Assembly: GCF_001013475.1 (NCBI RefSeq)
Contig: NZ_JZEF01000003.1
Location: forward strand, 712,956 to 776,955
From: Xanthomonas arboricola pv. juglandis
GTDB lineage: Bacteria > Pseudomonadota > Gammaproteobacteria > Xanthomonadales > Xanthomonadaceae
Direction of reading: 5' to 3'
DNA: 64,000 bases
The notes below the pieces were generated by a model that had not been told where the DNA came from, searched no databases, and saw only the letters and a list, made by a program, of their open reading frames with translations. Positions 14,922 through 30,251 of this stretch are shown here, piece after piece. Position 1 is the stretch's first letter, and each line of letters opens with the position of its first letter. The translations under genes and the position numbers were made by a program.

Positions 14922-15121
14922 TGGGCCCGCGTGGGTCGCGAGCGCACGCAAACATCGGTGACGTTGGGAAACCAGCGCACGCCGCATGAAGCGCTACTCA
15001 CTCCGTGAGGCACTAGCCGCTTCGTAGGTCTCGGCCACACCCTCCAGTTGGCTTGGCATCGAGGCTAAGGCACATCAGCAGCCCTGAAGCACCGCATGAC
15101 GGCTTGGCGCCGCGCTTGCGG

Positions 15122-15127
15122 CACAAT
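15122..15127 (+). promoter_or_regulatory. Candidate -10 element placing the start at the hutD-like ATG
   Basis: CACAAT ends six bases before the ATG at 15134, so transcription would begin at the start codon (leaderless mRNA). There is no Shine-Dalgarno sequence before the ATG. The rest of the gap 14776-15133 holds the terminator above and no gene that I can see. Confidence 0.35.
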
Positions 15128-15133
15128 GCGCCC

Positions 15134-15964
15134 ATGCAGCTGACAGACCTGAGCAGCCGGGTGATTCCGGCCACCGAGTACCGCCGTGAGCGGTGGCGCA
15201 ATCAATTGGGCTGGACGCGCGAGATCCTGCGTCTCGGCGACGCCGATGCGTGGTCGCTACGCCTGTCGATCGCCGAGATCGAGCAGGACGCGGCGTTTTC
15301 CGCATTCCCGGGCATCGATCGCGAGCTGGTGCTGTTACACGGCAATGGCATGCGGCTGCAGTTTGGCGATGCTGCCAGCGGTAGGGGCAGCGACACCGAC
15401 ACAAGCACAGGCAACGACACCAGCACAGGCACCGGGACCGGCACCGGTGCAGGCATTGGCATCGGCACGGCTACTAGCGGCGGCGTCAGCAAAAGCGATA
15501 GTGGCAATGGCAATGGCAATGGCAATAAGGGCAGTGGCGCTGACCAGGGCGTCCATGACGCCAGCGCCGGCGCCGGTGGCGATGGCAATGTCAATGTTCC
15601 TGGCAGCAGTCATCGCAGCTGCGAGTTGCTGCCGCCGCACCAGCGCGTCCGATTCGCAGGCGAGGAAACGGTACATGCGACGTTGCTCGACGGGCCGACC
15701 CAGGATTTCAACCTGATGTGGCGGCGCGATCTGGTGCAGACCGAACTGCTGCACCGGCCGCTGGTCGGCACCATGCTGTTTTTCGCCGACCCGGGCAGCG
15801 CCTGGGCGATCCACCTGCTGGCAGGCCAGGCCAGCTTTGGGCGCGAGAGTGGCCTGCCACCGTTGGCTGCCGGCGATACCGCGTGGCTGAGTGCCTCCAC
15901 GCGCAGCCGCTATGTGCTCGATGGCGGCGGCGAGCTGCTGGCGATCCGGGTGAGCCCGGTCTAG
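15134..15964 (+). CDS. HutD/Ves family protein with a low-complexity insertion
   Basis: 276-residue cupin-like HutD-family protein; the family is usually about 190-200 residues. Residues 1-78 and about 160-276 carry the recognisable family sequence, including LPPHQRVRFAGE and a C-terminal QASFGRESG segment. Between them lies about 80 residues of Gly/Ser/Thr/Asn/Asp-rich sequence made of repeated dipeptides (TG, GN), encoded by in-frame hexanucleotide-like repeats at 15365-15600. The frame is intact through the insert. HutD proteins are linked to histidine utilisation in some bacteria, but no hut gene is nearby, so the role is uncertain. Confidence 0.8.
   Translation: MQLTDLSSRVIPATEYRRERWRNQLGWTREILRLGDADAWSLRLSIAEIEQDAAFSAFPGIDRELVLLHGNGMRLQFGDAASGRGSDTDTSTGNDTSTGTGTGTGAGIGIGTATSGGVSKSDSGNGNGNGNKGSGADQGVHDASAGAGGDGNVNVPGSSHRSCELLPPHQRVRFAGEETVHATLLDGPTQDFNLMWRRDLVQTELLHRPLVGTMLFFADPGSAWAIHLLAGQASFGRESGLPPLAAGDTAWLSASTRSRYVLDGGGELLAIRVSPV
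15365..15600 (+). repeat. In-frame simple-sequence expansion inside the hutD-like gene
   Basis: Runs of degenerate GGCACC/GGCATC and a (GGCAAT)3-4 block encode the Gly-rich insert. Units are multiples of three bases, so copy-number change would keep the frame. Confidence 0.75.
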
Positions 15965-16117
15965 GGCGTTTCACGTATCCGCAAGCAGATCGCACCCCCG
16001 CGGCACGCGCCCGGATGCGTTCGTGTCAATGCAGACAAGCGACGGCATCGCTGTGCCACCTGGCTAGGGAACAGTGCATGGGCCGGGAGTGGTTCCGGCA
16101 ATTCCAGGGGGAAATCA

Positions 16118-16783
16118 ATGAGTACCATCAGCTCGGTCGGAGCCGGCTACGTCGCCTACCCGTCCTATGCAAGCCGAAGCGCGAGCACCGGCAACAGCGC
16201 GTCCGCCGCGCAGGCGGAAAAAACCAATCCGCTGACACAGTTGTTCAAATCCATCGATAGCGACAGCGATGGCAGCCTGACCGCGTCCGAGCTGTCGACC
16301 GCGCTGTCGTCCAATAGCGATGACGACAGCAAGATCGACATCGACGGGCTGCTGAGCATGCTCGATCAGGATGGCGGCGGCACTGTCAGCGAGAGCGAAC
16401 TGGCGCAGGCCTTGCCGCCGCCTCCGCCACCGCCGGGTGAGCAAGGACAGGATGTGCAGTCGTTGTTTGCCGGCCTGGACAGCGATGGCGACGACAGTGT
16501 CAGCAGCGGTGAATTGAGCACACTGGTCAATGGCGACAGTGCGTCGAGCACGCAGCTGCTGGACCTGCTCGACAGCGACAAGAGCGGGGCGCTCAGTCTG
16601 CAGGAGCTGCAGGAGGCGATGCAGCCGCGCGATCCGCCACCGCGACCGCCGTCATCGGCCGATGCATCCAGCAGCGACGGCACGCAGCAGGCCTATGCAG
16701 CGTTGGTGCAGATGGCCGTGGGGCAGTACCGCAGCATTGGCGGCAGCGCGACAACGAGCAATCTGGTCGATCTGGCAGCGTAA
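16118..16783 (+). CDS. Four-EF-hand calcium-binding protein
   Basis: 221-residue protein with no signal peptide. Four canonical EF-hand loops begin at D47, D83, D121 and D152, each ending in Glu at loop position 12, arranged as two pairs. The pairs are separated by a run of eight prolines (100-107), and another proline-rich stretch follows the fourth loop. The first 35 residues are Ser/Ala/Tyr-rich. The start follows a GGGGGAAA-type ribosome-binding site. Calcium binding is well supported by motif; whether it buffers calcium, signals or is secreted without a Sec signal is unknown. Confidence 0.87.
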   Translation: MSTISSVGAGYVAYPSYASRSASTGNSASAAQAEKTNPLTQLFKSIDSDSDGSLTASELSTALSSNSDDDSKIDIDGLLSMLDQDGGGTVSESELAQALPPPPPPPGEQGQDVQSLFAGLDSDGDDSVSSGELSTLVNGDSASSTQLLDLLDSDKSGALSLQELQEAMQPRDPPPRPPSSADASSSDGTQQAYAALVQMAVGQYRSIGGSATTSNLVDLAA

Positions 16784-17272
16784 CGCGGTATCGAGCGATA
16801 ACGGGGACGCCGGGGCGTAGCGGTGTATCCAGCGCGCGCGGTGCAGCGAGGGTGCTGCATGCCTTGTCGATGCAGCACCGCGTTGGAAAGAGACTTCGTC
16901 GCGGGAGGCGTCGGACCAAAGACTGCTTCTGGCACCGCGGATGCATCACTGGATGCGCCTTCTGTGAAGTCCGGCTGTGAACTACTGCTTTCTTCTTGGG
17001 GCAACGCGGCTGTGAGCGCTGGGCAACGCGATTGCTTTTTTTTCGCCATTGGCCGCTGACAGAGGCCACAAGCGGTTGTCAGCGGCCGACAACGGTCAGA
17101 AGCATCGGGAAGGGCAGATGACTGCAGCAACGGCGCGCAGTCCTGGATCAGCCGGTGTGTTTAGCGCGCAGCCACTGCAAGCTGGGATGCTGCGGATTTC
17201 AGTACCAGACGTGCTGCTGGCACCTGCGTAATCGTTTTTTTGATCGCTTTTGGCAGTGCCGCACGCGATGGT
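16784..17272. other. Noncoding gap between convergent genes with two hairpins
   Basis: No convincing gene in 489 bases. Two perfect 10-base inverted repeats are present: GGTGCTGCAT/ATGCAGCACC (16851-16860, 16870-16879, 9-base loop) and GGCCGCTGAC/GTCAGCGGCC (17051-17060, 17078-17087, 17-base loop). A run of eight or more T lies near 17036-17043. These could end transcripts from either side. Confidence 0.5.
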
Positions 17273-19051
17273 TCAGTACACGTCGCGGCGATAGCGCCCG
17301 TTGCGTAGTAGTTCCTGTCTGACGTCGGCTCCGAGGATGCAATCCAGCGTGCGGTCGAGTTCGGGCGCCATACCACGCAGGCTGCCACAGACGTAGATGC
17401 AGGCGCCTTGATCGATCCAATGACGCAGGCGGTCGGCGGCTGCGGCCAGTGCGTGTTGGACGTAATGCGGTGGCTGTGGTTGATCGCGCGAGTAGACAAG
17501 ATCCATGCGCTCGATCCAGCCATCCTGCTGCCACTGCTGCAGCTCGTCGGCATACAGCGTGTCGTGCGCGGCATTGCGTTCGCCGAACAGCAGCCAGTTA
17601 CGCCGCGCGCCGGCTGCGATGCGTGCACGCAGATGGGCGCGCAGGCCGGCGATGCCGGTGCCGTTGCCGATCAGCAGCATCGGCTGGTCGGGTGCGGGTG
17701 GGTGGAAGCCGGGGTTGCTGCGCAAGCGCAGCGCGATGGCTGCGCCGATCGGTGCATGCACGCAGAGCCAGCCGCTACCCAGCCCCAGGTTGCCGTCGGC
17801 GTGCCGATGCTCGCGCACCAGCAGTTCGGCATGGCCTTCCTCGGGAATGGATGCGAGCGAATAGTCGCGATGGGGCAGGGTGACCAAACTACGCACCAAC
17901 GCATCTGCGTCCAGTGGTGAAGTTGTGCTCGTGGCTGTTCCCGTAGCTGTATCAGTGCCTTTACCTGTGTCCGTAATTGGATCGATTTTGACTTCGACTT
18001 CGGCATCGGCATCGGCATCGGCATCGGCGCCAGCGCAAGCACCAGCACTATCGCTGAGGCTGGCACCGGCACCCACATCGATACCGAGAGCGGCATCGGT
18101 ATCGACGGGAAGTTGCGCGCCGCCGAGCCAGTCGCGCAGGGTCCGGCCGTCGATGCGCTGTGCGCCATCGCGTTGGTTGCGCTGCAGCCAGCATTCCACC
18201 GCATCGGGGGCGTGACGCGGTGCGATCTCCGCGATATCGCCTGCGCTCCACTGCGGCAATGCGCCATCGCATGGCGTCAGGCGCAGCCGGTAAATCGGCG
18301 CACCCGCACTGCCGGGATTGACGTGGACACGTTCGCGTAGCTGCCAGGTGGTGTAGGTCGGCAGGCTCCAGTCGGGTTGCGTCGCCAGTGCGGGCGCCAG
18401 TTCCGCCAGACAGTGTTGCCAGTGCTGCAGGGCGTTGGGGTCAGCGTTATCGACCTCGATGCGTTCGAACAGGCGAGTGGCGCCGCGCGCCTGCAGGCGA
18501 TCGTCGAGGCGCCGGCCGAACGCGCAGTAGTGCGCGTAACCACGGTCGCCGAGCGCCAGCACCGCGTACTGCACGGCCGTCAGATCCTGCGCATCGCCGG
18601 CCAGCCAATCGCGCTCGGCTGCTTGCGCATGGTCGGGCGCATCGCCCTCACCGGTGGTGCTGACGATGCACAGCAGCCGCGGCACGCGTGCGAGTTGATC
18701 GCTGTCGACGGCTTCGATCGGCAGCGCATGCGCGCCGACGCCTGCCGATTGCAACGCGGCAACGCTGCGTTGCGCCAGTTCACGCGCAAATCCGGTCTGG
18801 CTTGCCCAGACGATCAACACGCCGCTGGCGTCTGCGCGTTGTGCGCCGACGCGCTTGCGAGCACGCAGCAGCACGACCGCACACAGGCCTAGATACAGCG
18901 CCAGGCCGAGTGTGGCCAGTTGCCAACGATGCGGCGTGGGTGCGCTCCACCATGCGCCCTCATGCAGGCCGGCTAGCCAGCCGGCGATGACCGCAAGCGC
19001 CAGCAGAACCAGCCCGTTGCCCAGCCACACGCGTGAGGTGGCGCTGCTCAT
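17273..19051 (-). CDS. Membrane-anchored flavodoxin/FNR reductase (sulfite-reductase alpha-like)
   Basis: 592-residue diflavin reductase. Two N-terminal membrane helices (about 10-26 and 44-62) end in a basic RARKR stretch, placing the rest in the cytoplasm. A flavodoxin-like FMN domain (about 75-215, with WASQTGFA and STTGEGD) is followed by a FAD/NADP-binding FNR domain (MLLIGNGTGIAG near 462, CGSLRGMAPELD near 552). A low-complexity Asp/Ala/Thr insert lies at about residues 315-380 in the connecting region. In related proteins the PepSY membrane domain is fused; here it is a separate gene five genes upstream. The start overlaps apbE by four bases. Probably donates NADPH electrons to a membrane partner. 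Confidence 0.85.
   Translation of the reverse strand: MSSATSRVWLGNGLVLLALAVIAGWLAGLHEGAWWSAPTPHRWQLATLGLALYLGLCAVVLLRARKRVGAQRADASGVLIVWASQTGFARELAQRSVAALQSAGVGAHALPIEAVDSDQLARVPRLLCIVSTTGEGDAPDHAQAAERDWLAGDAQDLTAVQYAVLALGDRGYAHYCAFGRRLDDRLQARGATRLFERIEVDNADPNALQHWQHCLAELAPALATQPDWSLPTYTTWQLRERVHVNPGSAGAPIYRLRLTPCDGALPQWSAGDIAEIAPRHAPDAVECWLQRNQRDGAQRIDGRTLRDWLGGAQLPVDTDAALGIDVGAGASLSDSAGACAGADADADADAEVEVKIDPITDTGKGTDTATGTATSTTSPLDADALVRSLVTLPHRDYSLASIPEEGHAELLVREHRHADGNLGLGSGWLCVHAPIGAAIALRLRSNPGFHPPAPDQPMLLIGNGTGIAGLRAHLRARIAAGARRNWLLFGERNAAHDTLYADELQQWQQDGWIERMDLVYSRDQPQPPHYVQHALAAAADRLRHWIDQGACIYVCGSLRGMAPELDRTLDCILGADVRQELLRNGRYRRDVY
18001..18024 (-). repeat. Hexanucleotide repeat encoding (Asp-Ala)n
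   Basis: Four perfect CGGCAT units on the plus strand, read as alternating Asp and Ala on the minus strand, inside the flavoprotein insert. Confidence 0.8.
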
Positions 19052-20022
19052 GACGCGGACAGGTGGCGTTCGAATGCCGGGCTCATGGATTCGAGCAGGA
19101 TGCCGTCCTTGCGTGCCAGGAATCGCACGGCCAGTTCCGCCTTGCGCGCATGGGTAAGACCGGCATCGACGCCAAGCACGGTCATCGCGGTGGCCCAGGC
19201 ATCGGCCTGCATCGCATCGGGCGCGAGTACGGTGACCGCCGCAGGGGCATGCGGAACGGGCGCGCCGGTGCGTGGGTCGAAGGTGTGCGTGTAGCGCGTG
19301 CCGTCGGCATCGAAGCGGTGCCAGCGATCGCCGGAGGTGGCGACCGCCAGGCCGTCCAGCACCAGCACGCGTGCCGGCAGCGCGCTACCGGCATCTTCGT
19401 CGGGGGCGGATTCGACCAGCACGCGCCACGCGCTGGCATCGGGCTTGCGTCCGTAGCCGAACAATTCGCCGCCGACCTCGATCAATGCACTGTCGATACC
19501 CGACTGCAGCAATGCGCGATGCACGCAGTCCACACCGAAGCCCTTGGCGATGCCGGACAGATCCAGCGCCGCTGCGCCCGGCTGCAGCACACGCCTGCCA
19601 TTCAGCTGCAGGCGTTGCCAGCCGCAACGCAGGCTCGCCAATGCGATCGCCTGCGCTTCCGGCACGCGCTGGCGCGTGTCCGCCGCGCCGAAGCCCCATA
19701 GCTCGACCATCGGGCCGACGGTGGGGTCGAAGGCACCCTCGCTGGCCTGTGCGATCTCCAATGCTGCGCTCAGCACTGCGTGGAATTCGTCCGGCAGGTG
19801 GTGCCAGCTGCCCGCCGGTGCGCGGTTGTAACGGCTGATATCCGAATCGGCCTCCCAGGTACTCATCTGCGCGACCACACGATTCAGCGCGGTCTGGATG
19901 CACGCATGCAAGGGGTGCAGATCGCGCCCGCGCGGCGCCACCAGCTTCACGCTCCAGGTGGTGCCCATGCTGCGGCCGCCGAGCGTGGCAATGGCGTGGT
20001 CGGCGGAAGACGATGCGGACAT
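19048..20022 (-). CDS. apbE: FAD:protein FMN transferase ApbE
   Basis: Attaches FMN from FAD covalently to a threonine of target proteins with a Dxx(S/T)GxT motif. The 324-residue protein shows the N-terminal RSMGTTWSV motif, the HTFDPRTGAPV motif and the metal-binding segment ADAWATA. The start is the first possible one, since a stop codon lies four codons upstream, and no signal peptide or lipobox is visible, although ApbE usually acts in the periplasm. It overlaps the flavoprotein gene by four bases and lies two genes below the DUF2271 candidate substrate. Confidence 0.93.
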   Translation of the reverse strand: MSASSSADHAIATLGGRSMGTTWSVKLVAPRGRDLHPLHACIQTALNRVVAQMSTWEADSDISRYNRAPAGSWHHLPDEFHAVLSAALEIAQASEGAFDPTVGPMVELWGFGAADTRQRVPEAQAIALASLRCGWQRLQLNGRRVLQPGAAALDLSGIAKGFGVDCVHRALLQSGIDSALIEVGGELFGYGRKPDASAWRVLVESAPDEDAGSALPARVLVLDGLAVATSGDRWHRFDADGTRYTHTFDPRTGAPVPHAPAAVTVLAPDAMQADAWATAMTVLGVDAGLTHARKAELAVRFLARKDGILLESMSPAFERHLSAS

Positions 20023-20089
20023 GGACGGATCTTATGAAGATGGGGCGGCAGGGTGCACGCTGCGTGCGCTCCTGCCGCGTGCCGGCAGA

Positions 20090-20893
20090 TTACTGCGGCA
20101 ACACTTCCAGGGTGGCGACATAGCCCAGGCGGCGCTGCTTGGCCTGCGGCAGCGAGGTCTTGGTGTCTTCGGTGGTGGTTTCCAGCCAGTACATGCCCGG
20201 CTCCGGCCAGGTCACGCTGAAGCCGCCCTTGGCATCGGTTTTGAGCTTGATCTCGTTCTGCGCATCGCGATAGCGGGTGCCGCCGCGCACGATCTCGATC
20301 TCCAGCCCGGCCGCCGGCTTGCCATCCAGCTGCAGCGTGAATTGCGCCGCTTCACCGGCGACCAGATCGTTGGGATGGGTCACCGGAATCAACTCGATGC
20401 CCTTGCCGGCGGGCTTGAAGACCGTGGTGGTCGGTGCACCGCGGGTGACGAAGGTCTCCACCCGGTTGAAGGACTGCGAAACCTGCAGATCCTGCGCGTT
20501 CTTCGGCACTTCAGTGGCGAAGCGGGCTTCGTCGCCACGCCAGCGCTTGGGCTTGCCGTCTTCCTTCCAGCTGGCGAACAGGCCGGCGTTGACGATGCTC
20601 AGCTTGTAGGTGCCGGGCTGGGTGAGCTGCAGGTCGAACACGCTGCGGTACTTGCCGGTGGCCGGATTTTCCGGCTTGAGCGCGCTGCCATCGGGTGCGG
20701 TGATGCTCATGTTATCCAGGCGCAGTGGCACGTGGTTGAAGTAGAACAGGTCGTTGGACACCGCTGCATCCACGGTGATCCACGGCGCCTCACCGGCGAT
20801 GACGGTCTGCGACGGCAGCAACCAGGCCTTGTGGGCGAGTGCGCTGAGCGGCAGTGCGGCGAGCATGGCGATCAGGACGAGCGAACGTTTCAT
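20090..20893 (-). CDS. DUF4198 family exported protein (metal-uptake type)
   Basis: 267-residue protein with a signal peptide of 20 residues ending ALA. Cleavage there would leave His21 as the mature N-terminus (HKAWLLPS), the pattern seen in NikK-like DUF4198 proteins where the amino-terminal histidine binds metal. The rest has Ig-like/carboxypeptidase-like beta sequence with two domains. Position between DUF2271 and apbE in an iron locus suggests a periplasmic metal-binding or delivery role. That is inference; the substrate is not known. Confidence 0.87.
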
Positions 20894-21064
20894 GACAACT
20901 CCTTGAAGGACGATGAGGACGGTGGGTCACGTGTCTGATCAGCGCGCAGGTATGGCGCTGCGTGGATGCGTGGAAAGCGAATGTGTCTGGCAACGCGATG
21001 CACTGCGCACCTGCGCCGTGGCCGGCCGCCGACGCTGCGCGCGGCCGCCACCAGCAGGCAATGC

Positions 21065-21580
21065 TCAGGGTTTTGCGACCAGGCTGATGGCGCCGAGCTC
21101 GCTGCTGCCGCCGGCCTTGGCGGTCTGCGCAGACTTTGCCGGCCAGGTGAAGGGCACCTTGACCAGTTCGCGGCCGCCGACCTCGCGCGCGGCTTCCACC
21201 ACCAGCGTGTACTGGCCGGGCGGGAGCGACTTCAACGCGCCCTTGGTGTCGGAGAACGACAGCGCATGCGCGCCGGCCGGACGGGTGGGGCCGGTGACGC
21301 CGTCGACCGGCACCTCGAGGGTGCGCCCGCTCTTGCGCCACCACTGGCGCAGGTCCGGCAGCCACTTGGTGCCGTGGCCTTCGGCGGTGTCCTTGGATTG
21401 ATACCAGACCGCCAGATTGGCGGCGACCTTCTGGTCCGCACCTTCCAGCCAGATCGCCACGTACGGGCGGTGATATTCGGCGACGTTGAGCTTGGGAATC
21501 TCGACGTTGATGTCGAGCGTGGCGGCGTATGCCGGCATGGCGAGCAGGCCGCTCAGTGCGATGGTCAGGGTGGCGCGCAT
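21065..21580 (-). CDS. DUF2271 exported protein, candidate flavinylated carrier
   Basis: 171-residue protein with a signal peptide (residues 1-20, PAYAA). The DUF2271 domain follows, with WLEGADQK and a WLPDLRQWW segment. Residues 93-99 read D-G-V-T-G-P-T, closely resembling the ApbE acceptor motif Dxx(S/T)GAT, with Thr99 in the position that receives FMN in NqrC/RnfG-type proteins. ApbE is encoded two genes away and a PepSY membrane protein is adjacent. I infer a periplasmic FMN electron carrier. The function of DUF2271 is not established by sequence alone. Confidence 0.87.
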   Translation of the reverse strand: MRATLTIALSGLLAMPAYAATLDINVEIPKLNVAEYHRPYVAIWLEGADQKVAANLAVWYQSKDTAEGHGTKWLPDLRQWWRKSGRTLEVPVDGVTGPTRPAGAHALSFSDTKGALKSLPPGQYTLVVEAAREVGGRELVKVPFTWPAKSAQTAKAGGSSELGAISLVAKP

Positions 21581-21602
21581 GATCGTCTCCGGTAGGAAAA
21601 AG

Positions 21603-22241
21603 TCAGTGGATCAACAGCAGGGCGAGCAGCAACGGAATCAGCAGACCCAGGCCGACCAATGGCCAGGTCATGCGGCGCTGGCGCGCATGCAGATGCAGCA
21701 GGAACAGCCCGGTGATGCAGAACACCAGGCAGGCAATGGCGAACACGTCGATGAACCAGCCCCAGGCCGGCCCGGCATTGCGTCCCTTGTGCAGATCGTT
21801 GAGATAGGCGATGGCGCCGCGCCCGGTACGCTCGTATTCGATCGCGCCGGTGCTGCGGTCCAGGCTCAGCCAGGCATCGCCGCCAGGACGCGGCAGCGCC
21901 AGATACACCTCGTCGGCCGACCATTCGGCCGCGCGCGTGCCGATGCTGATATCCAGCTCACGCCCCAGCCATTGCGCCACGTGTGGCGGCAGCGGGGCAT
22001 CGCCGTCGTCGCGGCTGCCCAGGGACTTGAGCAGGGCCGGCGGCAGCGTGAGCGTGCGGTGTTCGGTCGAAGGGCTGGCTTCGATGCGCGCGGCATGGTT
22101 CAAGGTCAGCCCGGTGATGGCGAACAGCAGCATGCCGATCAGGCACAGCGCCGAACTGATCCAGTGCCATTGATGCAGCATGCGCAGCCAGAAACCGCGG
22201 CGTTGCTGGGAGGTGGCAAGAGTGTCGTTGGAGGTCGCCAT
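21603..22241 (-). CDS. PepSY-associated transmembrane protein
   Basis: 212 residues from ATG 22241; an ATG at 22259, overlapping the upstream stop, would add six. Membrane segments are at about 20-45, 155-178 and 186-206. The central periplasmic part contains a PepSY-like region ([22 protein letters not shown]). Histidines in LHQWHWISS and LHKGRNAG flank the helices and could bind heme, as suggested for PepSY_TM proteins in iron reductases. It lies 22 bases upstream of DUF2271. Probably carries electrons across the inner membrane. Confidence 0.85.
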
Positions 22242-22248
22242 GGCGCGC

Positions 22249-23007
22249 TCAGGCCACATCCACTGCGAGCGACGGCTGCAGGTGCGATTGCCGCACGGCC
22301 ACTTCGCTCAGCAAGGCGCGCAGACGTGGCTGCGTTGCACCTGCAAGCAACGGGGTAATTTGTTGCAGGAAGCCGGCATGCCCGCCGGCGATCGCACGGC
22401 GCATCCATCGCTCGGCCTGATCGATGTCGCCCGCGTCCGCGAGCAAGGTGGCGTAACCGGCCTGGCCGCGAAAATCGCCTGCTTCGGCGGAACGGCGATA
22501 CCAGTGGCGCGCGACGACCGGATCGGCAGCGCAGGCCAGGCCCTGGTCGAGATAGCGCGCCACGAAGTTCATCGATTTGGCATGCCCGCGTTCGGCGGCG
22601 GTGCGATACAGCGCCAACGCCTGCGCGTGGTCCTGGGCCACGCCGCGGCCGGAGCCGTACAGATGGGCGAGGTTGTACATGCCCCAATCCAGCCCATGCT
22701 CGGCGGCGCGGCGGTACCACAGCGCCGCCAGCACCGCGTTGCACGCGGTGCCGAAGCCCAGTTCGTGGCAGCGCCCCAACTGGTTCATCGCTTCCGCATG
22801 CCCGGCATTGGCGGCGACCTCGTACCACAGCATCGCCATGGCCGGATCGGCGGGGATGCCGCGGCCTTCGGCGTAGAGCTGGGCGAGCAGCAGTTGCGCC
22901 GCCGGATCCTGGCGCTCGGCGGCCTTGCGCAGCAGCACGACCGCGCGATCGGGCTGCGTGTGCAACAGCTCGATCAGCTGCGCCGGGTCCAGTGCGGGCT
23001 CAGACAT
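22249..23007 (-). CDS. Sel1-like (TPR-type) repeat protein
   Basis: 252-residue cytoplasmic protein with about five Sel1-like repeats from residue 35 to 215 (consensus seen as [19 protein letters not shown]..., [19 protein letters not shown]...). No signal peptide. It overlaps the start of the PKHD hydroxylase gene by eight bases. In Pseudomonas a Sel1-type gene also accompanies piuA and piuC, so its presence here is part of a conserved iron module. Sel1 repeats serve protein-protein contact; the partner is unknown. Confidence 0.88.
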
Positions 23008-23686
23008 CGGCCCACTGCCGCAGCAGGTTGTGATACACGCCGGTGAGCTGGATCAGCGACGGATGGCCAGGGGTGTCCTGGGTGAGCCGCCGGATCGACA
23101 CGTCCAGTTCGAACAGCAGGCGACGCTGCGCATCGTCGCGCAGCATGCTTTGCGTCCAGAAGAAACAGGCGACACGCGCGCCGCGGGTCACCGGCATCAC
23201 CCGATGCAGGCTGGTGCCGGGATAGATCACCAGGTGCCCGGCCGGCAGCTTCACCGACTGCGTGCCGTAGGTGTCTTCGATCACCAGCTCGCCGCCGTCG
23301 TAGCTGTCCGGGTCGCTGAGAAACAAGGTGGCCGAAACATCGGTGCGCACGGGATCTGCGCCTCCACGACTGCGGTCGTAGCGGATCGCGTTGTCGACGT
23401 GGTAGCCGAACGATTGCCCGCCGCTGTAGCGATTGAACAGCGGCGGATAGATGCGCCGCGGCAATACCGCCGAAAAAAACGTGCTGCTGCGCGAGAGTGC
23501 GTCCAGCACCAGCGCGCCGGCCTCGCGTGCAATGGCGCTGTCTTCGGGCAGTTGTGCGTTGTCCTTGGCCTGCGCCGACTGATGGCCGGCGGTGATGCGG
23601 CCGTCCGCCCAGTCGGCCGCGTCCAGCCGCGCGCGCAGCTCGGCGAGCTGGGCGGTGCTGAGAACATCGGGAATGGGCAGCAACAT
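23000..23686 (-). CDS. PKHD-type Fe(II)/2-oxoglutarate hydroxylase (PiuC/YbiX family)
   Basis: 228-residue dioxygenase with the iron-binding triad His96, Asp98 and His161 (GYHVDN ... SLHRVMP) and Arg171 (TRGAR) for 2-oxoglutarate. Length matches YbiX/PiuC. These enzymes are co-encoded with iron-regulated TonB receptors (PiuA/Fiu), and the substrate is not known. It lies 48 bases after the receptor gene and overlaps the Sel1 gene, so it is in the same operon. Confidence 0.93.
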
Positions 23687-23734
23687 GCGGTGGTCTCCAC
23701 GCCGCCCGCGTTGTGCGGACGGCGTGCCAGTGGG

Positions 23735-26053
23735 TCAGAAACTGAAGGTGGCGCTCAACACCGCCGAGCGGCCTTCGCCCGGAAGTGCCCAGCCACTGCC
23801 GGCGGTGACGGTGCCGGCGGCATTGACGGTGAGGTTGTTGCGCACGCTGGTGTAGTACTCCTCGTCGAACAGGTTGTTGACGTTCAACTGCAGGCTGAGC
23901 CAGTCGTTGACGCGCAGGCCGACCATCGCGCGGTGCACCCAGTAGTCGTCGGTCTTGCGATAGGCCGCGGCCGAGGCGTTGTTGGGATAGAAACCGCCCT
24001 GATAGGTGACGCCGTAGCCGAAGGTCCACTGATTGAGCGTGTAGGTCGTCCAGATGTTGCCGGCATTGCGCGGGGTCTGCACCAGGTCGCGTCCGGCCAC
24101 CGGGTCGCCGGTGAGGCTCTCGGTGCGGTTGGACACGCTCTGCAGTACTTCGCTGTCCAGGAAGGTGTAGTTGGCGAAGATCGACCAGCGGTCGGTCAGG
24201 TAACCGGCGGCGCCGAGCGCGATGCCGTCCACGCGTGCCTTGCCATCCAGCACCTGCTCGGGGATCAGCGGATCGCCGCTGTTGACCTTGTAGTTTTCGC
24301 GCTCGTTGCGGAACAGCGCAGCGGTCAGTGCCAAGCGCTGGTCCAGCACGTCCCACTTGCCGCCCAGTTCGATGTTGACCGCCGTCTCCGGTTCGACATT
24401 GCAGTTGGCGCCGGCGGTGGCCGTGGCGATCGGCGTGCACGAGCCGTTGACCGAGGCCTTGGACGGGGTCTTGCTGTTGGCGTAGGACAGATACAGGCTG
24501 GCGTTCTCGGCTGGCTTGAACACCAGGCCGGCACGATACGAGAACAGGTCCTCTTCGCTGCCGGCCGGGAAGCCCGCGCTCACACCGGTGACGTTGCCGG
24601 CGGCGTTGACGGTGTAGGTGGTGCTGTCGCCTTCGTTGTGCTCGTAGCGGCCGCCCAGGTTGAGCATCCACTGTTCGTTGAACTGCAGCGTGTCGAACAG
24701 GTAGACCGCCTGATTGGTCAGGCTGCCCTTGCTGCGCCCGGTGCGGAAGTAATTCTGCGGTCCGGTCCAGATGTTGTACGGATTGTCGAAGGACTGTACC
24801 GGGTAGGTGATGCCGGTGGTGGAGCCATCGGCATTGCGGAAGGTGGTGCCGCTATTGAGTTCGAAGTCTTCCTTGCTGAAGGCCACGCCTGCGACCACAC
24901 GGTGCTCGATGGCGCCGGTATGCAAGGTGGCGGTCAGGTCGGTCTGGCTGTGCGCGATGAAGTTTTCCGTCTCGCGGACCAGGCCACGCGGGCCGCTGTT
25001 GGGGTTCCAGCTGGCCGCCGGCTGGCCGACGCAGGCGCGGCCGGTGTACGGGTCGGTGCCGTTGGGCAGGCACCAGGTGCCCTGCGGTGCGGTGGCATTG
25101 GTGGTCTGGTCGACGCGCTGCACGCGCGCCAGGCTGCGCAGTTTGACGTTGTCGTCGAAATCCATTTCCAGCACGCCGGTCAGCATGTCCACGTCGATTT
25201 CCTGACGCGAGGTATTGCGGTAACTGAAGAAGGTTTCCGGGTCCACGCCCGGCAGCGGGCCGTCGTTGAACGGGCTGAGCGCGAACGGCACGCCGTATTG
25301 CGGCAGGTTGTTGTCGTGCTGGTGCAGGTAGCTCAGGGTGAAGCGGGTATCCGAGCCCAGTCCGAACGCCACCGACGGCGCAAAGCCCCAGCGATGACGA
25401 AACTCCTCATCGCGCCCCGGCACGTCCTGGGTGTGGCCCATCGCGTTCAGGCGCACGGCGGTGCCGTTTTCGAAATCGTAATTGCTGTCGGCGGTCAGCC
25501 GGCCATAGCGGTCGCTGCCGCCACCGACCACGACGTTGGTGAAGTCCCCCTGGCCGGCGGTCTTGGTGACCAGATTGATGTTGCCGCCAACCGAGCCGGC
25601 GCCGGACATGGCCGAGTTGGCGCCGTTGATCAGTTCCACCGCTTCCAGGTTGAAGGTGTCGCTGCGGCTGTACTGCGCGCTGTCGCGCACGCCATCGGTG
25701 GTGATGTCGCTGCTGGCGGTGAAGCCGCGCAGGTTGATGCTGTCGCCATAGCCACCGCCGCCTTCGCCGGCGCCGAAGGTGATGCCGGGCAGGGTGCTGA
25801 GCACATCGCGCAGCGACAGCAGGTTCTGCTGGTCCATGGTCTGCTTGGTGACCACGGTGATCGTCTGCGGCGTGTCGCGCAGCACCTCGGTGTACTTGGG
25901 CGAGGACGGCTTCTGCGCGCGTTCCTGCTGCACCCGGATGGCGTCCAGATCGACCGCGCCCGGAGGCGCTGGCGCATCGCCAGGCTGGGCGAAGGCAGGA
26001 GCGGACAGCGTCAGCAGCACGGCCGAGGTGAGCGGGGAAATCCTGGGAGTCAT
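23735..26053 (-). CDS. TonB-dependent siderophore receptor (PiuA/Fiu-like)
   Basis: 772-residue outer-membrane receptor. Signal peptide about 1-22 (SAPAFAQ), a TonB-box-like segment near 35-42 (LDAIRV), plug domain about 55-170 (LRDVLSTLPGITFGAGEG, INLRGF), then a 22-strand barrel ending in the outer-membrane signature phenylalanine (SATFSF). Downstream piuC-like and Sel1 genes match the catecholate receptor PiuA/Fiu module. ATG 26053 is chosen; the frame extends upstream without signal-peptide character. A Fur-box-like promoter lies about 250 bases upstream. The ligand is inferred to be a catecholate siderophore. Confidence 0.93.
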   Translation of the reverse strand: MTPRISPLTSAVLLTLSAPAFAQPGDAPAPPGAVDLDAIRVQQERAQKPSSPKYTEVLRDTPQTITVVTKQTMDQQNLLSLRDVLSTLPGITFGAGEGGGGYGDSINLRGFTASSDITTDGVRDSAQYSRSDTFNLEAVELINGANSAMSGAGSVGGNINLVTKTAGQGDFTNVVVGGGSDRYGRLTADSNYDFENGTAVRLNAMGHTQDVPGRDEEFRHRWGFAPSVAFGLGSDTRFTLSYLHQHDNNLPQYGVPFALSPFNDGPLPGVDPETFFSYRNTSRQEIDVDMLTGVLEMDFDDNVKLRSLARVQRVDQTTNATAPQGTWCLPNGTDPYTGRACVGQPAASWNPNSGPRGLVRETENFIAHSQTDLTATLHTGAIEHRVVAGVAFSKEDFELNSGTTFRNADGSTTGITYPVQSFDNPYNIWTGPQNYFRTGRSKGSLTNQAVYLFDTLQFNEQWMLNLGGRYEHNEGDSTTYTVNAAGNVTGVSAGFPAGSEEDLFSYRAGLVFKPAENASLYLSYANSKTPSKASVNGSCTPIATATAGANCNVEPETAVNIELGGKWDVLDQRLALTAALFRNERENYKVNSGDPLIPEQVLDGKARVDGIALGAAGYLTDRWSIFANYTFLDSEVLQSVSNRTESLTGDPVAGRDLVQTPRNAGNIWTTYTLNQWTFGYGVTYQGGFYPNNASAAAYRKTDDYWVHRAMVGLRVNDWLSLQLNVNNLFDEEYYTSVRNNLTVNAAGTVTAGSGWALPGEGRSAVLSATFSF

Positions 26054-26620
26054 GAGGCGTCTCGAAGAGGAAAGCGAGGCTCCGGCCTGGCGATGGCTCG
26101 GCAGATGCGGGAAGGGAAGCGGATCGGGGAAGGCGCGCCCGCTAGCCCGAGGCGGCCAGTCGGCCCGACCAGTCTCCTGACACGCACAGGCACTGCGCAG
26201 CAAGGCGCACGCGGGGCAGGATCGGGGAAAAAGTGGCAAGCAGAGCTGGGCGCATGGGATCGCAGGGCAGGCCAGTTGTTAAGAAGGCCTGAAGGGCTGC
26301 GATCTTAAATGCAAATCATTCTTCTTTGCAATCTTTGTCGGCTGGCACCATGCACCGGGCAATCGCGCTGGCTGAGGCGTCAGGCCATTGCGGCGATCGA
26401 TGCGGGCCTGCATGGGGACCCGCACGGGTTTGCGCCTGCTGGCCGGCCGAGGTGTCGCTTGCACGACTGGTCGCGCTCGCTGGCGTGGCAGCGCGTCTTT
26501 TCCTGCGGGGCGCGGATCTACGCACACCCGGGCACGCGCCGGACGGGGCCGAGACTGCGGATCGGCGTCCTGAGCGGTCTGCGCGCATGGCGACCGTATC
26601 ACCCACGGGTCCGGCTGGTG
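26054..26620. other. Long leader and intergenic gap upstream of the receptor gene
   Basis: About 570 bases between the receptor start and the stop of the Rieske gene. It contains the Fur-box-like promoter at 26304-26331 and a predicted leader of about 240 bases. No gene or clear terminator seen. Confidence 0.5.
26304..26331 (-). promoter_or_regulatory. Fur-box-like operator over a sigma-70-like promoter
   Basis: On the minus strand, TTGCAA (26326-26331) and TTTAAG (26304-26309) are spaced 16 bases apart. Between them lies AATGATTTGCATT (26308-26320), 11 of 13 matches to the Fur-box core and 12 of 19 to the full consensus. Fur with iron bound would occlude the promoter. It drives toward the TonB receptor operon. 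Confidence 0.5.
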
Positions 26621-26950
26621 TCAGCGGTCGTCGCGGGTCCAGATGCCGCCGTGTTCGCGCTTGACCGGGAACTTGGACACCGCGGTGTAGGCCGGTGCGC
26701 ACAGCGGGCGGCCGTCGCGGATGTCGAAGCGGGCGCTGTGCAGCAGGCACTCGATGCTGCCTTCTGCCGGGTCGAACGTACCCGGCGACAATTCGTAGTC
26801 TTCGTGGCTGCAGCGGTCTTCCAGCGCGTACAGCTCGCCGTCGAGGTTGAAGATGACGATCGGGGTGTCGGTCACCTCATCCCAGACGGTCTGCAGCTCG
26901 CCGGGCAGCAGCGCCTCGCTGGCGCAGACGAAGGTCCAGGTTTCGCTCAC
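26621..26950 (-). CDS. Rieske [2Fe-2S] ferredoxin-like protein
   Basis: 109-residue soluble protein with the Rieske ligand pattern C47-x-H49 and C68-x2-H71. Similar proteins serve as the small subunit of nitrite reductase or as ferredoxins of ring-hydroxylating systems, but no partner oxygenase is adjacent. It overlaps the GNAT gene by four bases and ends the suf-linked run, which may reflect shared demand for cluster assembly. Partner unknown. Confidence 0.9.
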   Translation of the reverse strand: MSETWTFVCASEALLPGELQTVWDEVTDTPIVIFNLDGELYALEDRCSHEDYELSPGTFDPAEGSIECLLHSARFDIRDGRPLCAPAYTAVSKFPVKREHGGIWTRDDR

Positions 26951-27486
26951 GGCGCTGCGCCGCCAAGCGGTTTTTCCAGCACTTCGAAGCGCAGGTCCTG
27001 GCGCAGCGGCACGCCGAAACGCTCGTCGCCATACGGGAACGGTTTGAAGATGCCGGTGCGGCGGTAACCGCGTCGCTCGTAGAACGCGATCAACTCGTCA
27101 CGGATGTCGATCACCATCATCCGCATCACCGGCAGCTGCCACTCGGTGTAGGCGATACGCTCGGCCTCGGCCAGCAGTGTCTTGCCCAGCCCGCTGCCCT
27201 GCAGCGACGGGTCCACCGCAAACATGCCGAAGTAGCCGGCACCATGGTCGTCGGCAATATGCGCGCAGACCCGCAGGCGCCCGTCCTGTTCGACCAGCAG
27301 CACCAGGCTGCGGTCGCGCAACAGGTCCTCGCGCAACACCGCAGGATCGATCCGCGCGCCGTCGAGAAAATCGGCCTCGGTGGTCCAGCCAACGCGGCTG
27401 ACATCGCCGCGATAGGCCGAGGTCACCAGCGACACTAGGGCGTCGATGTCGTCGACGGTGGCGGTACGGAAGGTGGTGGTCTGCAT
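26947..27486 (-). CDS. GNAT family N-acetyltransferase
   Basis: 179 residues from ATG 27486 (MQTTTFRTATVDDIDALVSL). The acetyl-CoA-binding motif is visible as QGSGLGKTLL near residue 105, and FYERRGYRRTG near 148 is the usual C-terminal GNAT signature. The frame continues upstream through the heptad repeat, which translates as a periodic sequence, but that part is not family-like. Substrate unknown. Overlaps the Rieske gene by four bases. Confidence 0.88.
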   Translation of the reverse strand: MQTTTFRTATVDDIDALVSLVTSAYRGDVSRVGWTTEADFLDGARIDPAVLREDLLRDRSLVLLVEQDGRLRVCAHIADDHGAGYFGMFAVDPSLQGSGLGKTLLAEAERIAYTEWQLPVMRMMVIDIRDELIAFYERRGYRRTGIFKPFPYGDERFGVPLRQDLRFEVLEKPLGGAAP

Positions 27487-27515
27487 GGGGAGCAGTTTAG
27501 CGGGAGTCGTGATTG

Positions 27516-27647
27516 GGGAATCGGGAATCGGGAATCGGGAATCGGGAATCGGGAATCGGGAATCGGGAATCGGGAATCGGGAATCGGGAATCGGGAATCG
27601 GGAATCGGGAATCGGGAATCGGGAATCGGGAATCGGGAATCGGGAAT
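27516..27647. repeat. GGGAATC heptad tandem array (18 full copies)
   Basis: Eighteen perfect GGGAATC units plus a partial GGGAAT, between sufS and the GNAT gene. A length not divisible by three makes it reading-frame active if translated. Inverse-orientation copies (GATTCCC type) lie at 27719-27745, so transcripts could fold into a long hairpin. Related shorter arrays occur at three other sites in this window. Confidence 0.95.
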
Positions 27648-27718
27648 AGCGTTGCGCCGCCAGATGAGCTACTTCCAACGTGTCGAACTGCATCAGTATG
27701 CGGGAGAGCCGCTTTTTC

Positions 27719-27745
27719 GATTCTCCAGTCCCGATTCCCGATTCC
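27719..27745. repeat. Inverse-orientation heptads next to sufS
   Basis: GATTCTCC, then GTCCCGATTCCCGATTCC: two to three GATTCCC-type units, complementary to the 27516-27647 array about 70 bases away. Confidence 0.85.
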
Positions 27746-27747
27746 AA

Positions 27748-28992
27748 TCAACCCAGCAGGCGACGCACCTTCACTAACGCAGCAACAAAGCGCTCGATCT
27801 CGTCATGCGTGTTGTAGAACGCCAGCGAGGCGCGGCAGGTGGCGGCGACGCCGTAGTACTGCAGCAGCGGGTGCGCGCAGTGCTGGCCCGAGCGGACCGC
27901 GACGCCTTCCAGGTCGAGCAGGGTGGCCAGGTCGTGGGCATGCGCGCCTTCGATCAGGAACGACACCACCGCGGCCTTGTCCGGCGTGGTGCCGAAGATG
28001 CGCAGGCCGTCGATGCGCTGCAGTTCTTCGGTGAAATGCGCCAGCAGCTCGGCCTCGCGCGCTTCCACGTGCGCCAGCCCGACCGACTCCAGGTAATCGA
28101 CTGCCGCGCCCAGGCCGATGAAACCGGCGATGTTGGGCGTGCCGGCTTCGAACTTGTGCGGGGCATCGTTGAACACCGTGCCCTCGAAGCTGACTTCCTT
28201 GATCATCTCGCCGCCGCCCAGGAACGGCGGCATCGCCTGCAGGTGCTCGCGCCGCGCCCACAGCGCGCCGGTGCCGGTGGGCCCGCACATCTTGTGGCCG
28301 GTGATGGCGTAGAAATCGCAGCCGATGCCGGCCACGTCGATACGCCGATGCGGCGCGGCCTGCGAGCCGTCCACCACGGTGACGATGCCGCGCTTGCGCG
28401 CCTCGCGGCAGATCTCGCGCACCGGATTGACCGTGCCCAGCACATTGGACACATGCGTGATCGCCAGCAGCCTGACCTCCGGCGTCATCGCCTTGCGCAA
28501 GGCGTCCAGATCCAGCGCGCCGTCCGGGGTGATCTCGGCCACGCGAATGGTCGCGCCGGTGCGTTGCGCCACCAGCTGCCACGGCACGATGTTGGCGTGG
28601 TGCTCCATGCGCGAAATCAGGATCACATCGCCGGCGCCCAGGCGCGGCAGCGCCCAGGAATAGGCCACCAGATTGATCGCAAAGGTCGTGCCGCTGCACA
28701 GCACCAGTTCGTCGGCACGCACGTTGAGAAAGCGGGCGAGCTTGCTGCGCGCGCCTTCGAAGGCGTCGGTGGCCTCGGTGCCCAGCGCATGCACCGCGCG
28801 GCTCACATTGGCGTTCTGGCGACGATAGAACTCGTCGGTCGCGGCGATGACCTGCAGCGGCTTCTGCCCGGTGTTGGCGTTGTCGAAATAGATCAGCGGC
28901 TTGCCATGCACCTGCCGCATCAGCAGCGGGAAATCCGAGCGCACGCGCTCCCAGTCCGGCGCGGCCAGCTGCGTGGCGGCGGGCGTGTTCAT
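27748..28992 (-). CDS. sufS: Cysteine desulfurase SufS
   Basis: PLP enzyme that removes sulfur from cysteine and supplies it to the SufBCD scaffold. The 414-residue protein has the PLP lysine Lys234 (TGHKMCGPTG) and the active cysteine Cys372 (RSGQHCAHP), of group II (SufS) type. Its start overlaps the sufD stop by four bases. No sufE or sufU is visible nearby, so the sulfur-transfer partner must be encoded elsewhere. Confidence 0.97.
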   Translation of the reverse strand: MNTPAATQLAAPDWERVRSDFPLLMRQVHGKPLIYFDNANTGQKPLQVIAATDEFYRRQNANVSRAVHALGTEATDAFEGARSKLARFLNVRADELVLCSGTTFAINLVAYSWALPRLGAGDVILISRMEHHANIVPWQLVAQRTGATIRVAEITPDGALDLDALRKAMTPEVRLLAITHVSNVLGTVNPVREICREARKRGIVTVVDGSQAAPHRRIDVAGIGCDFYAITGHKMCGPTGTGALWARREHLQAMPPFLGGGEMIKEVSFEGTVFNDAPHKFEAGTPNIAGFIGLGAAVDYLESVGLAHVEAREAELLAHFTEELQRIDGLRIFGTTPDKAAVVSFLIEGAHAHDLATLLDLEGVAVRSGQHCAHPLLQYYGVAATCRASLAFYNTHDEIERFVAALVKVRRLLG

Positions 28993-30251
28993 GCCACGCC
29001 TGCCGAGGCCAGTGCGCGGTCCAGCTGCAGCGCCAGCACCGCACTCAGCGCGGGGGGGAGCACGCGCAGCGGCTCGTGGCAGAACGCGGCGCTCAACAAA
29101 CGCTGCGCCTCGGCCTGCGGCAGACCGCGCGAGCGCAGATAGAACAAGGCATTGTCGTCGAGCTGGCCGACGGTGGCGCCATGCGCGGCCTGCACTTCCT
29201 CGGCATCGATCACCAGCACCGGCTGGGTGTCGATCTCGGCATTGGCCGACAGCAGCAGATTCTTGTTCGACAGCCGCGCGTCGGTGCCATCGGCGCCCGG
29301 ACGGATGTTGATGCCGCCGTGGAAGACCACCCGGCTGCGATCGGCGCCCACGCCGCGCCAGACCAGCTCGCAGGTGGTGTCGCGTGCGATGTGCGCAATG
29401 CCCAGACGTGTATCGACATGGCGGCGGCCGTTGCCGAGCAGCACGCCATTGGCGGTGAGCTGGGCATTGTTGCCCTCCAGGCGCACGTTGAGCTCGTGGC
29501 GCGACAGGTTGGCACCCAGTTCCAGGTCCACGCGCTGGTAGCGCGCATTGCGCGCCAGCACCGCATCGGTGCGCAGCAGCGACGTTGCGTGCGCGCTGTC
29601 GGCCTGCACGCGCGCATGCGACAGCACCGCATCCTGGGCCAGATGCACATGCATCAGGCTGTTGTGCAGATGTGCGGCATCGCCGACATGCAGGTGGTGC
29701 TCGACCACGTTCAGCGCCGCGCCGGCGCGCAGTTCGATCAGGTGGCGGTGGTGCCAGGACAGGTCGTGCTCGCCGGCCACGCCGATGAAGACCAGATGCA
29801 GCGGCGCCTCGATCTGCGCGCCTTCCTGTACGCGCACCAGCACGCCTTCGTCGGCAAGTGCGGCATTGAGGCGCGCAAAGATCTCATCGCTGCCTTCGAA
29901 ACGGCGGCCGAGCAACTGCTGCGCCTCGTCGCCTGCGGCCAGCGACGCTGACAAGGTGTCCAGCCGCACGCCGTCCGGCAGCGTCGACAGGTCGCTCAAT
30001 GCGTCGGACGGGCGGCCGTTGACGAACACCAGCCGCGGCGACGGGATCTCGTCCAGCAGCGCGGCATCGATCAGCGTCGGCACCAGCGGCGCGGGCTGGA
30101 AGCTGCGCCGCTCCAGCTGCCGCAGCGAGGTGTACTTCCAGGCTTCGGCGCGCGGGCCGGGCAGGCCGGCCTGCAGCGCGGCATCGAGTTCGACCCGGCG
30201 CGCATCGTTACCGCAGAAGCCGCGGGCGAGGGATTCCAGCAGGGCGCTCAT
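28989..30251 (-). CDS. sufD: Fe-S cluster assembly protein SufD
   Basis: Scaffold subunit of the SufBCD complex, 420 residues, with the conserved C-terminal block HGATVGQLDDNALFYL including the histidine that matches the cluster-forming His360 region of E. coli SufD. Overlaps sufS by four bases, and sufC by one base (position 30251). Cytoplasmic. Confidence 0.95.
   Translation of the reverse strand: MSALLESLARGFCGNDARRVELDAALQAGLPGPRAEAWKYTSLRQLERRSFQPAPLVPTLIDAALLDEIPSPRLVFVNGRPSDALSDLSTLPDGVRLDTLSASLAAGDEAQQLLGRRFEGSDEIFARLNAALADEGVLVRVQEGAQIEAPLHLVFIGVAGEHDLSWHHRHLIELRAGAALNVVEHHLHVGDAAHLHNSLMHVHLAQDAVLSHARVQADSAHATSLLRTDAVLARNARYQRVDLELGANLSRHELNVRLEGNNAQLTANGVLLGNGRRHVDTRLGIAHIARDTTCELVWRGVGADRSRVVFHGGINIRPGADGTDARLSNKNLLLSANAEIDTQPVLVIDAEEVQAAHGATVGQLDDNALFYLRSRGLPQAEAQRLLSAAFCHEPLRVLPPALSAVLALQLDRALASAGVA

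Follow-up and report, generated by a model that had tools for sequence, protein, structure and literature searches.

We have analysed a group of eight genes from Xanthomonas arboricola pv. juglandis, which combines a predicted siderophore receptor with components of a putative flavin-based electron transfer chain and which resides on the minus strand, between positions 26053 and 17273, of a stretch of 64,000 nucleotides (the window) belonging to a Xanthomonas-type genome of 5.08 Mb in 8 contigs. The genes were assigned from reading frames and Pfam matches and encode, in the order from receptor to reductase, a TonB-dependent receptor of the PiuA/Fiu type with 772 amino acids (23735-26053, Plug and barrel domains, the ATG being taken at 26053), a PKHD-type Fe(II) dioxygenase of the PiuC/YbiX type (23000-23686, PKHD_C and 2OG-FeII_Oxy_3, with three of four NCBIfam PRK05467 models above cut-off), a Sel1-repeat protein (22249-23007, four repeats, in which neither a hydrophobic segment nor a leader was seen), a PepSY_TM_like_2 membrane protein (21603-22259, E 3e-84, hydrophobic segments at residues 34-52, 170-188 and 199-217), a DUF2271 protein with a modest signal peptide and a likely role as carrier of flavin mononucleotide (FMN; 21065-21580, E 1e-52), a DUF4198 protein (20090-20893, E 9e-63), an ApbE FMN transferase devoid of a leader (19048-20022, E 8e-80) and an anchored flavodoxin/FNR reductase (17273-19051, Flavodoxin_1 and NAD_binding_1, hydrophobic segments at residues 8-26 and 44-62). 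The PepSY protein is 96% identical to its counterpart in X. euroxanthea. Successive genes are separated by 48, -8, -11, 22, 171, 67 and -4 bases, and these short gaps and overlaps make a single transcription unit plausible. A first-pass annotation of the same DNA had named these genes and placed them on one strand, as the Pfam matches confirm, under a title that promised nine; its own list contained eight, and a ninth gene was rejected as no further credible frame was seen between 17273 and 26331.

The group is preceded by a Fur box, AAGAAGAATGATTTGCATT, on the minus strand at 26308-26326. This sequence is the sole match in the window, with none found in 100 shuffled versions even if up to three mismatches were allowed, and it is base-for-base identical to the box of XCC2772 from X. 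campestris listed in Table 1 of Blanvillain et al., 2007 (PMC1790865), a gene that is induced in iron-poor medium and repressed via Fur. Scored with a matrix built from the nine other X. campestris boxes of that table, the XCC2772 box itself being left out, the site reaches 20.5 bits and is the best of the window, followed by a runner-up of 13.9 bits. The Fur-box-like promoter of the first-pass annotation is thus a real site, and the proposed control by iron gains support from the sequence, where boxes of at least 15 bits precede the operon in 78 of 100 loci from the order of the source organism, in 24 of 40 loci from elsewhere in the phylum and in 74 of 80 loci taken as the best 80 of at least 586 relatives (the order, phylum and named sets), compared to 195 hits among 11,000 control stretches taken from these loci. 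A table of the Fur regulon of Stenotrophomonas maltophilia lists a receptor, sel1, piuC and pepSY (PMC6240677), all of which are shared with our locus. The locus thus appears to be an iron-starvation gene set under control of Fur, with the underlying expression data coming from XCC2772 of X. campestris. Neither PMC1790865 nor PMC6240677 discusses an electron route or a flavin in the parts covered. No RNA element was detected around the operon in a search of positions 15000-29500 against Rfam at E values up to 1.

To place the operon in a wider context, we surveyed its relatives, all of which were picked by DUF2271 or by a PepSY protein of the present type, with genes called by profiles built from members of the order itself. 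DUF2271 occurs in 107 of 299 genomes of the order and in 70 of 398 genomes of the phylum, 65 of them above cut-off. The order set comprises 100 loci from 97 of these 107 genomes, leaving aside nine with mostly divergent DUF2271 proteins and the source genome of the window, the phylum set from outside the order covers 40 of 58 places, with the 18 most divergent absent, and the named set partly overlaps with the order set. On the same strand as DUF2271, the order loci contain PepSY in 97, DUF4198 in 99, ApbE in 95 and the reductase in 89 cases, and the five core genes are found on one strand in 87 of the 100 loci, an arrangement that is for this reason beyond chance. Core, receptor and PiuC together are present in 51 and all eight genes in 18 order loci. 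Among the 40 loci of the phylum set, PepSY was found in 38, DUF4198 in 39, ApbE in 23, the reductase in 24 and the full core in 15. The comparison of DUF2271 and DUF4198 neighbourhoods that the first-pass annotation had suggested as a check has thus revealed the expected co-occurrence. PiuC resides within about 9.5 kb of DUF2271, on either strand, in 54 of 100 order and 13 of 40 phylum loci. The 13 latter cases carry five family codes and place the gene downstream in opposite (seven), upstream in opposite (four) or downstream in same orientation (two), and this variety among different families suggests that the link between PiuC and DUF2271 was formed repeatedly. A published neighbourhood search has similarly tied PiuC and receptor genes to PepSY and Sel1 genes as next-best neighbours (PMC12004943). 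Two loci from the same genus look irregular, with profiles detecting neither DUF4198 nor ApbE in one (L075) and with PepSY split over two frames in the other (L038).

The five-gene core is a member of the published PepSY-like flavinylation systems, which are defined by a PF03929 or PF16357 protein in a cluster with ApbE, FMN_bind, DUF2271 or DUF3570, and in which PepSY (PF16357), DUF2271, DUF4198 and ApbE were found together as in our locus (Meheust et al., 2021; PMC8238504). In that study, iron reduction was proposed as function, and 231 of these clusters include a gene for a TonB protein. The present locus differs from these clusters by its leaderless ApbE, by a TGPT in place of a [S/T]GA[S/T] motif, and by the inclusion of PiuA, PiuC and Sel1 in the same stretch. 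A relative of known behaviour is CC3059-3063 of Caulobacter crescentus (CCNA_03155-03159), whose five genes match those of the core in identity and order, with a reductase that is split from PepSY, and where CC3059, although called a transporter, is the PepSY member. This operon is repressed by Fur, and insertions within it lower the fitness in presence of ethylenediaminetetraacetic acid. Its genome encodes CciT and CciO elsewhere (CCNA_00028/00027), unlike the receptor and dioxygenase of our locus. The scheme of the first-pass annotation, which directed electrons from NADPH through the flavoprotein and PepSY to FMN on DUF2271, is accordingly sound and mostly in print already, in Meheust et al., 2021 and the Caulobacter papers.

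A profile search of the PDB with the receptor identified 5fok, 5nec, 5fp1 and the Fiu structure 6bpm as closest solved structures, the former three of which we take to be PiuA/PiuD proteins. These neighbours group the receptor with PiuA and Fiu and not with FhuA. As in the pairs PiuA/PiuC and CciT/CciO, a Fiu/PiuA-family receptor adjoins a PKHD-type dioxygenase, whereas, unlike in these pairs, both are part of one run with the DUF2271 module. Homologues of the receptor matter for the entry of cefiderocol, a siderophore antibiotic (PMC12004947).

The PepSY protein contains six conserved histidines (His29, 32, 55, 157, 191 and 218), of which His32 is found in 134, His157 in 136, His55 in 129 and His191 in 122 of 136 PepSY sequences. 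By their sequence position, His32 and His191 on one side and His55 and His157 on the other form two pairs, one per membrane face, and with the N-terminus located inside, former would be close to the cytosolic and latter to the periplasmic side. His29 is never found in absence of His191 (both are present in 115, neither in 14 and His191 alone in seven of the 136 proteins, gaps being counted as absent), and this coincidence indicates that the two residues may constitute a separate site. In the siderophore reductase FoxB, two hemes are held by histidines at both faces of the membrane, and the electron donor is called unknown (PMC13038864). The PepSY protein of our locus resembles the heme relays of FoxB and HiuB by the position of its histidines on both faces, and it differs by its three hydrophobic segments with a single periplasmic stretch and, with respect to the donor of FoxB, by the reductase that is encoded alongside. 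The reductase itself matches structures of the sulfite reductase flavoprotein and of P450 reductase in a PDB profile search. Within the linker of its part binding flavin adenine dinucleotide, a TCGGCA hexamer repeated 4.8 times (18000-18028) encodes an acidic Ala-Asp run, and the stretch from SQTG to RxYS extends over 312 residues, compared to a median of 256 in 102 relatives. The first-pass annotation had described PepSY as fused to the reductase in many genomes and as split from it here. The split was rejected as a peculiarity of the locus, since both are contained in one frame in none of the 220 loci of the three sets (100 order, 40 phylum and 80 named) and are also separate in CC3059-63 of Caulobacter. 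The source genome additionally encodes a fused PepSY-reductase protein of 839 residues on contig C6 (L287), which matches the PepSY_TM and reductase profiles and ends in GRYRRDVY like the split reductase.

The FMN of the putative carrier is predicted to be attached to Thr99 of DUF2271 in a TGPT motif at residues 96-99 (21284-21295, minus strand), a site assigned from motif and conservation. A threonine occupies the acceptor position in 140 of 141 DUF2271 relatives, where the motif reads SGAT in 53, TGPT in 42, TGAT in 19 and SGPT in 10 cases, with 17 others. In Amantichitinum ursilacus, a DUF2271 protein is flavinylated by ApbE at a [S/T]GA[S/T] motif in which the threonine is required (PMC8238504). 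No further [ST]G[APG][ST] motif was found elsewhere in the eight proteins, and a second flavin target within the operon was therefore rejected. In profile searches of the source genome, ApbE and DUF2271 were each found once, and FMN_bind, NqrB/RnfD and DUF3570 gave no match, while the searches for the latter three were positive in four, four and one of 14 control genomes. DUF2271 is thus the only target of a known class for the only ApbE that was found. Two elements of the electron route proposed in the first-pass annotation, a membrane-embedded PepSY protein carrying histidines by both faces and an acceptor motif on DUF2271, find support at the level of the sequence.

An unexpected feature concerns the ApbE protein, whose N-terminus, MSASSSADHAIATLGGRSMGTTW, shows neither a signal peptide nor a lipobox. 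The presence of an in-frame stop four codons upstream of the ATG and the absence of a hydrophobic segment leave no room for a leader. In the analysis of relatives, leaders were judged by hydropathy, with an ApbE considered as exported at core values of at least 2.2 and as leaderless below 1.8, and with DUF2271 considered as exported at a laxer bound of at least 1.8. By this measure, 65 of 92 ApbE proteins encoded in their own frame in order loci are leaderless, 25 carry a leader and two are unclear, after three fusions of ApbE and DUF2271 were set aside (raw counts of 66 leaderless, three unclear and 26 exported among 95), and the phylum set contains 21 leaderless and two unclear cases among 23. 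Leaderless proteins span Alpha-, Beta- and Gammaproteobacteria and include members from Caulobacter segnis (L213), Stenotrophomonas maltophilia, Cupriavidus, Herbaspirillum and Achromobacter. Of the 21 cases in the phylum set, 15 share a short RVLIP-like N-terminal stretch that is found in none of the 65 order proteins, which suggests that their starts are real. In a tree of 116 ApbE sequences, the leader changes at least eight times, four of which are forced by supported branches. A control of 20 ApbE proteins of the class, from genomes taken irrespective of a DUF2271 neighbour, yielded 19 with a leader and one borderline case, though this sample is one-sided as its matches start at profile position 1-2.

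In contrast to ApbE, its apparent target is likely exported, as judged by hydropathy and by the Pfam title for DUF2271 (predicted periplasmic protein). The N-terminus of the protein, MRATLTIALSGLLAMPAYA, contains a 12-residue core of 1.88, modest for a signal peptide, followed by an A-Y-A pattern, and it thereby agrees with the definition of PepSY-like systems, by which at least one of the target genes encodes a predicted signal peptide. At 86 loci with a leaderless ApbE (65 order and 21 phylum), the DUF2271 core equals at least 1.8 in 75 cases and an A-x-A precedes the mature start in 74, compared to 21 of 25 for the latter beside an exported ApbE. Among cytosolic neighbours in order loci, the bound of 1.8 is passed by one of 54 PiuC, two of 19 Sel1 and none of 55 Rieske proteins. 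We have also considered whether the weaker leader of DUF2271 is linked to a leaderless ApbE, as suggested by order medians of 2.07 versus 2.30 (p 3e-5, ignoring kinship), and do not claim such a link because it is based on four independent pairs on supported branches and lacks a direction. With an ApbE that lacks an export signal, the premise of the first-pass annotation, by which exported redox proteins receive their FMN from ApbE, requires a different order of events at this locus.

The DUF4198 protein has a strong leader with a core of 2.78, and cleavage at ALA|H, as identified by eye, would leave a histidine at the mature N-terminus. This residue (His21) is found in 135 of 139 relatives, and His54 and His173 in 117 each. 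The N-terminal histidine is shared with IsDUF4198 from Ideonella, which binds Ni via this residue and His18 (PMC12537917). The position equivalent to His18, as obtained by counting and not from an alignment to IsDUF4198, is Trp38 of the precursor, a tryptophan in 124 of 139 relatives, and it is possible that DUF4198 proteins of the iron type use a different set of ligands. IsDUF4198 was not found in a PDB profile search with our protein, in which the chains of 9mhi-9mho, named phosphoribosylglycinamide formyltransferase, matched the DUF4198 profile with an E value of about 3e-6, perhaps as a result of a slip in naming. A second DUF4198 gene is located on contig C6 of the source genome (L282), followed by what looks on visual inspection like an EF-hand gene and by a weak match to a receptor, in a cluster that resembles CC2193 of Caulobacter (PMC3751524).

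Taken together, we consider it probable that the locus is a Fur-controlled iron acquisition operon, which uses NAD(P)H to release iron from siderophores in the periplasm and whose DUF2271 protein is flavinylated ahead of export. In such a mechanism, the receptor would import a ferric siderophore, probably a catecholate, into the periplasm. On the cytosolic side, the anchored reductase would oxidise NAD(P)H and pass electrons across the membrane via hemes that are presumably bound to the histidine pairs of the three-helix PepSY protein. The electrons would then reach the FMN that is predicted to be attached covalently to Thr99 of periplasmic DUF2271, and the flavoprotein would in turn reduce the siderophore iron or its carrier. 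With its N-terminal histidine, DUF4198 may bind the metal after its release until it reaches an Fe(II) importer, and PiuC would serve in the cytosol, acting there on either the ligand or the incoming iron. In light of an ApbE that lacks an export signal, FMN would most likely be placed on the DUF2271 precursor in the cytosol prior to its translocation.

Such cytosolic flavinylation appears feasible, as both DUF2271 and ApbE were expressed in a leaderless form in the published test in E. coli (PMC8238504). Operons like ours may already be part of the set of Meheust et al., whose count of extracytosolic systems dropped genes without a predicted leader and kept clusters where one leader among the target genes sufficed. 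A 2025 review describes most ApbE proteins as exported and cytosolic ones as acting on a soluble fumarate reductase target (PMC12052999), and our literature search, judged mostly by titles, returned none on a leaderless, cytosolic or intracellular ApbE from an operon of the PepSY/DUF2271 type. New in our study are thus the combination of a leaderless ApbE with an apparently exported target, its occurrence in a genome with a single target and the proline variant of the motif. As a tentative generalization, in which we place somewhat less trust than doubt, a cytosolic ApbE would flavinylate the precursor ahead of export in most PepSY/DUF2271 iron operons, with some lineages having switched to an exported enzyme.

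Several observations weigh against the proposed mechanism. The TGPT motif deviates from the published [S/T]GA[S/T] consensus, and that ApbE would accept a proline ahead of the acceptor is an assumption. The leader of DUF2271 is weak, with a core that is not flagged by a 19-residue scan, and values of at least 2.2 are reached in 12 of 86 cases beside a leaderless ApbE compared to 18 of 25 beside an exported one. Export by the twin-arginine (Tat) pathway was rejected as answer to the leaderless ApbE, since an RR is found in 11 of 65 DUF2271 leaders from order loci with a leaderless ApbE (and in 12 of 25 with an exported one) and is absent in the window. With leaders that are mostly not of this kind, the flavin-bearing chain would have to use Sec. 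In the phylum set, ApbE was not found within the stretch in 17 and a separate reductase in 16 of 40 loci. The joint absence of His29 and His191 in the 14 PepSY proteins described above indicates that the heme pair on the cytosolic side may not be a general feature, and a profile search of the PDB yielded no plausible relative of PepSY, not even FoxB. Finally, a second control of 20 ApbE proteins picked for short frames or late profile starts contained 17 without and three with a leader. As leaderless members of the family are thus widespread, a missing leader is by itself unremarkable, and we have withdrawn our notion that it would be unusual. In 14 of these 17 proteins, an M-x-x-[PT]-C-[ED] sequence is seen by eye where the locus ApbE has MGTTW, and they look like members of another subfamily; the oddity that remains is the pairing of a leaderless ApbE of the MGT type with an exported target. 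Many genomes of the class hold a leaderless ApbE-like protein with M-x-x-P-C-E replacing MGT (L311-L330).

The order of flavinylation and export would be reversed if the leaderless ApbE reached the periplasm of the same iron system without a signal peptide and modified DUF2271 there. For this arrangement speak the 2025 review, according to which ApbE proteins with secreted targets are exported and where in one assay a cytosol-expressed enzyme failed to restore growth of an ApbE mutant (PMC12052999), and the 25 of 92 order proteins with lipoprotein-like or Sec-like leaders, a few of them at the bound of 2.2. However, the in-frame stop just upstream of the locus ApbE, its lack of any leader or hydrophobic segment, the occurrence of this state in three proteobacterial classes and the RVLIP-like stretch that makes the starts in the phylum set look real argue in the opposite direction, and we consider a periplasmic location of ApbE quite improbable. 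The flavin step could instead have been lost or be irrelevant, with PepSY reducing the siderophore directly as in FoxB and DUF2271 acting as a non-flavin protein. In favour of this reading are the departure of TGPT from the published motif, the fact that DUF2271 is not named in the parts of the FoxB and HiuB accounts that were covered, and VciB, a PepSY-like protein reported to reduce iron while not being tied to flavinylation components (PMC8238504). Against it, the only ApbE of the genome is encoded between DUF4198 and the reductase, with columns that are kept across 119 relatives, and the genome yielded no further target of a known class, which leads us to regard the loss of the flavin as unlikely.

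A different question concerns the metal, which might be copper or nickel and not siderophore iron, in light of the PepSY protein CrpH, which serves copper-dependent oxidases (PMC13038864), the effect of CciT/CciO on copper resistance (PMC12004943) and the binding of Ni(II) by a DUF4198 protein (PMC12537917). This assignment conflicts with the Fur box at the locus and the control by Fur in X. campestris and Caulobacter, with the tryptophan in place of His18 (by count) and with the different N-terminus of a DUF4198 protein found beside a gene that, by eye, resembles cobalt/nickel transporters (L260), and we strongly doubt that either metal is the substrate. We thus retain the NAD(P)H-driven release of siderophore iron with a DUF2271 protein that is flavinylated before export.

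Regarding the surroundings of the operon, a gene coding for a Rieske protein is located upstream (26621-26950), a homologue of which accompanies the operon on its strand in 56 of the 100 loci from the order, including some without receptor, and a plus-strand gene for an EF-hand protein (16118-16783) converges on the operon end. A seven-base unit, CGGGAAT, is repeated 21 times at 27501-27647, beside an acetyltransferase-like frame named by eye, and low-complexity repeats at 15386-15526, within an unnamed frame (15053-15964), resemble the insert of the reductase in kind.

In operons of the described type, a single siderophore receptor is accompanied by an NAD(P)H-dependent flavoprotein, a membrane protein of the heme type and a carrier of flavin, so that the whole route becomes testable, which is of relevance in light of FoxB, whose electron donor is called unknown in print (PMC13038864). 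Its leaderless ApbE sharpens the question where exported carriers obtain their FMN, and if the proposed sequence of events is true, the flavinylation of exported proteins would extend beyond the periplasm.

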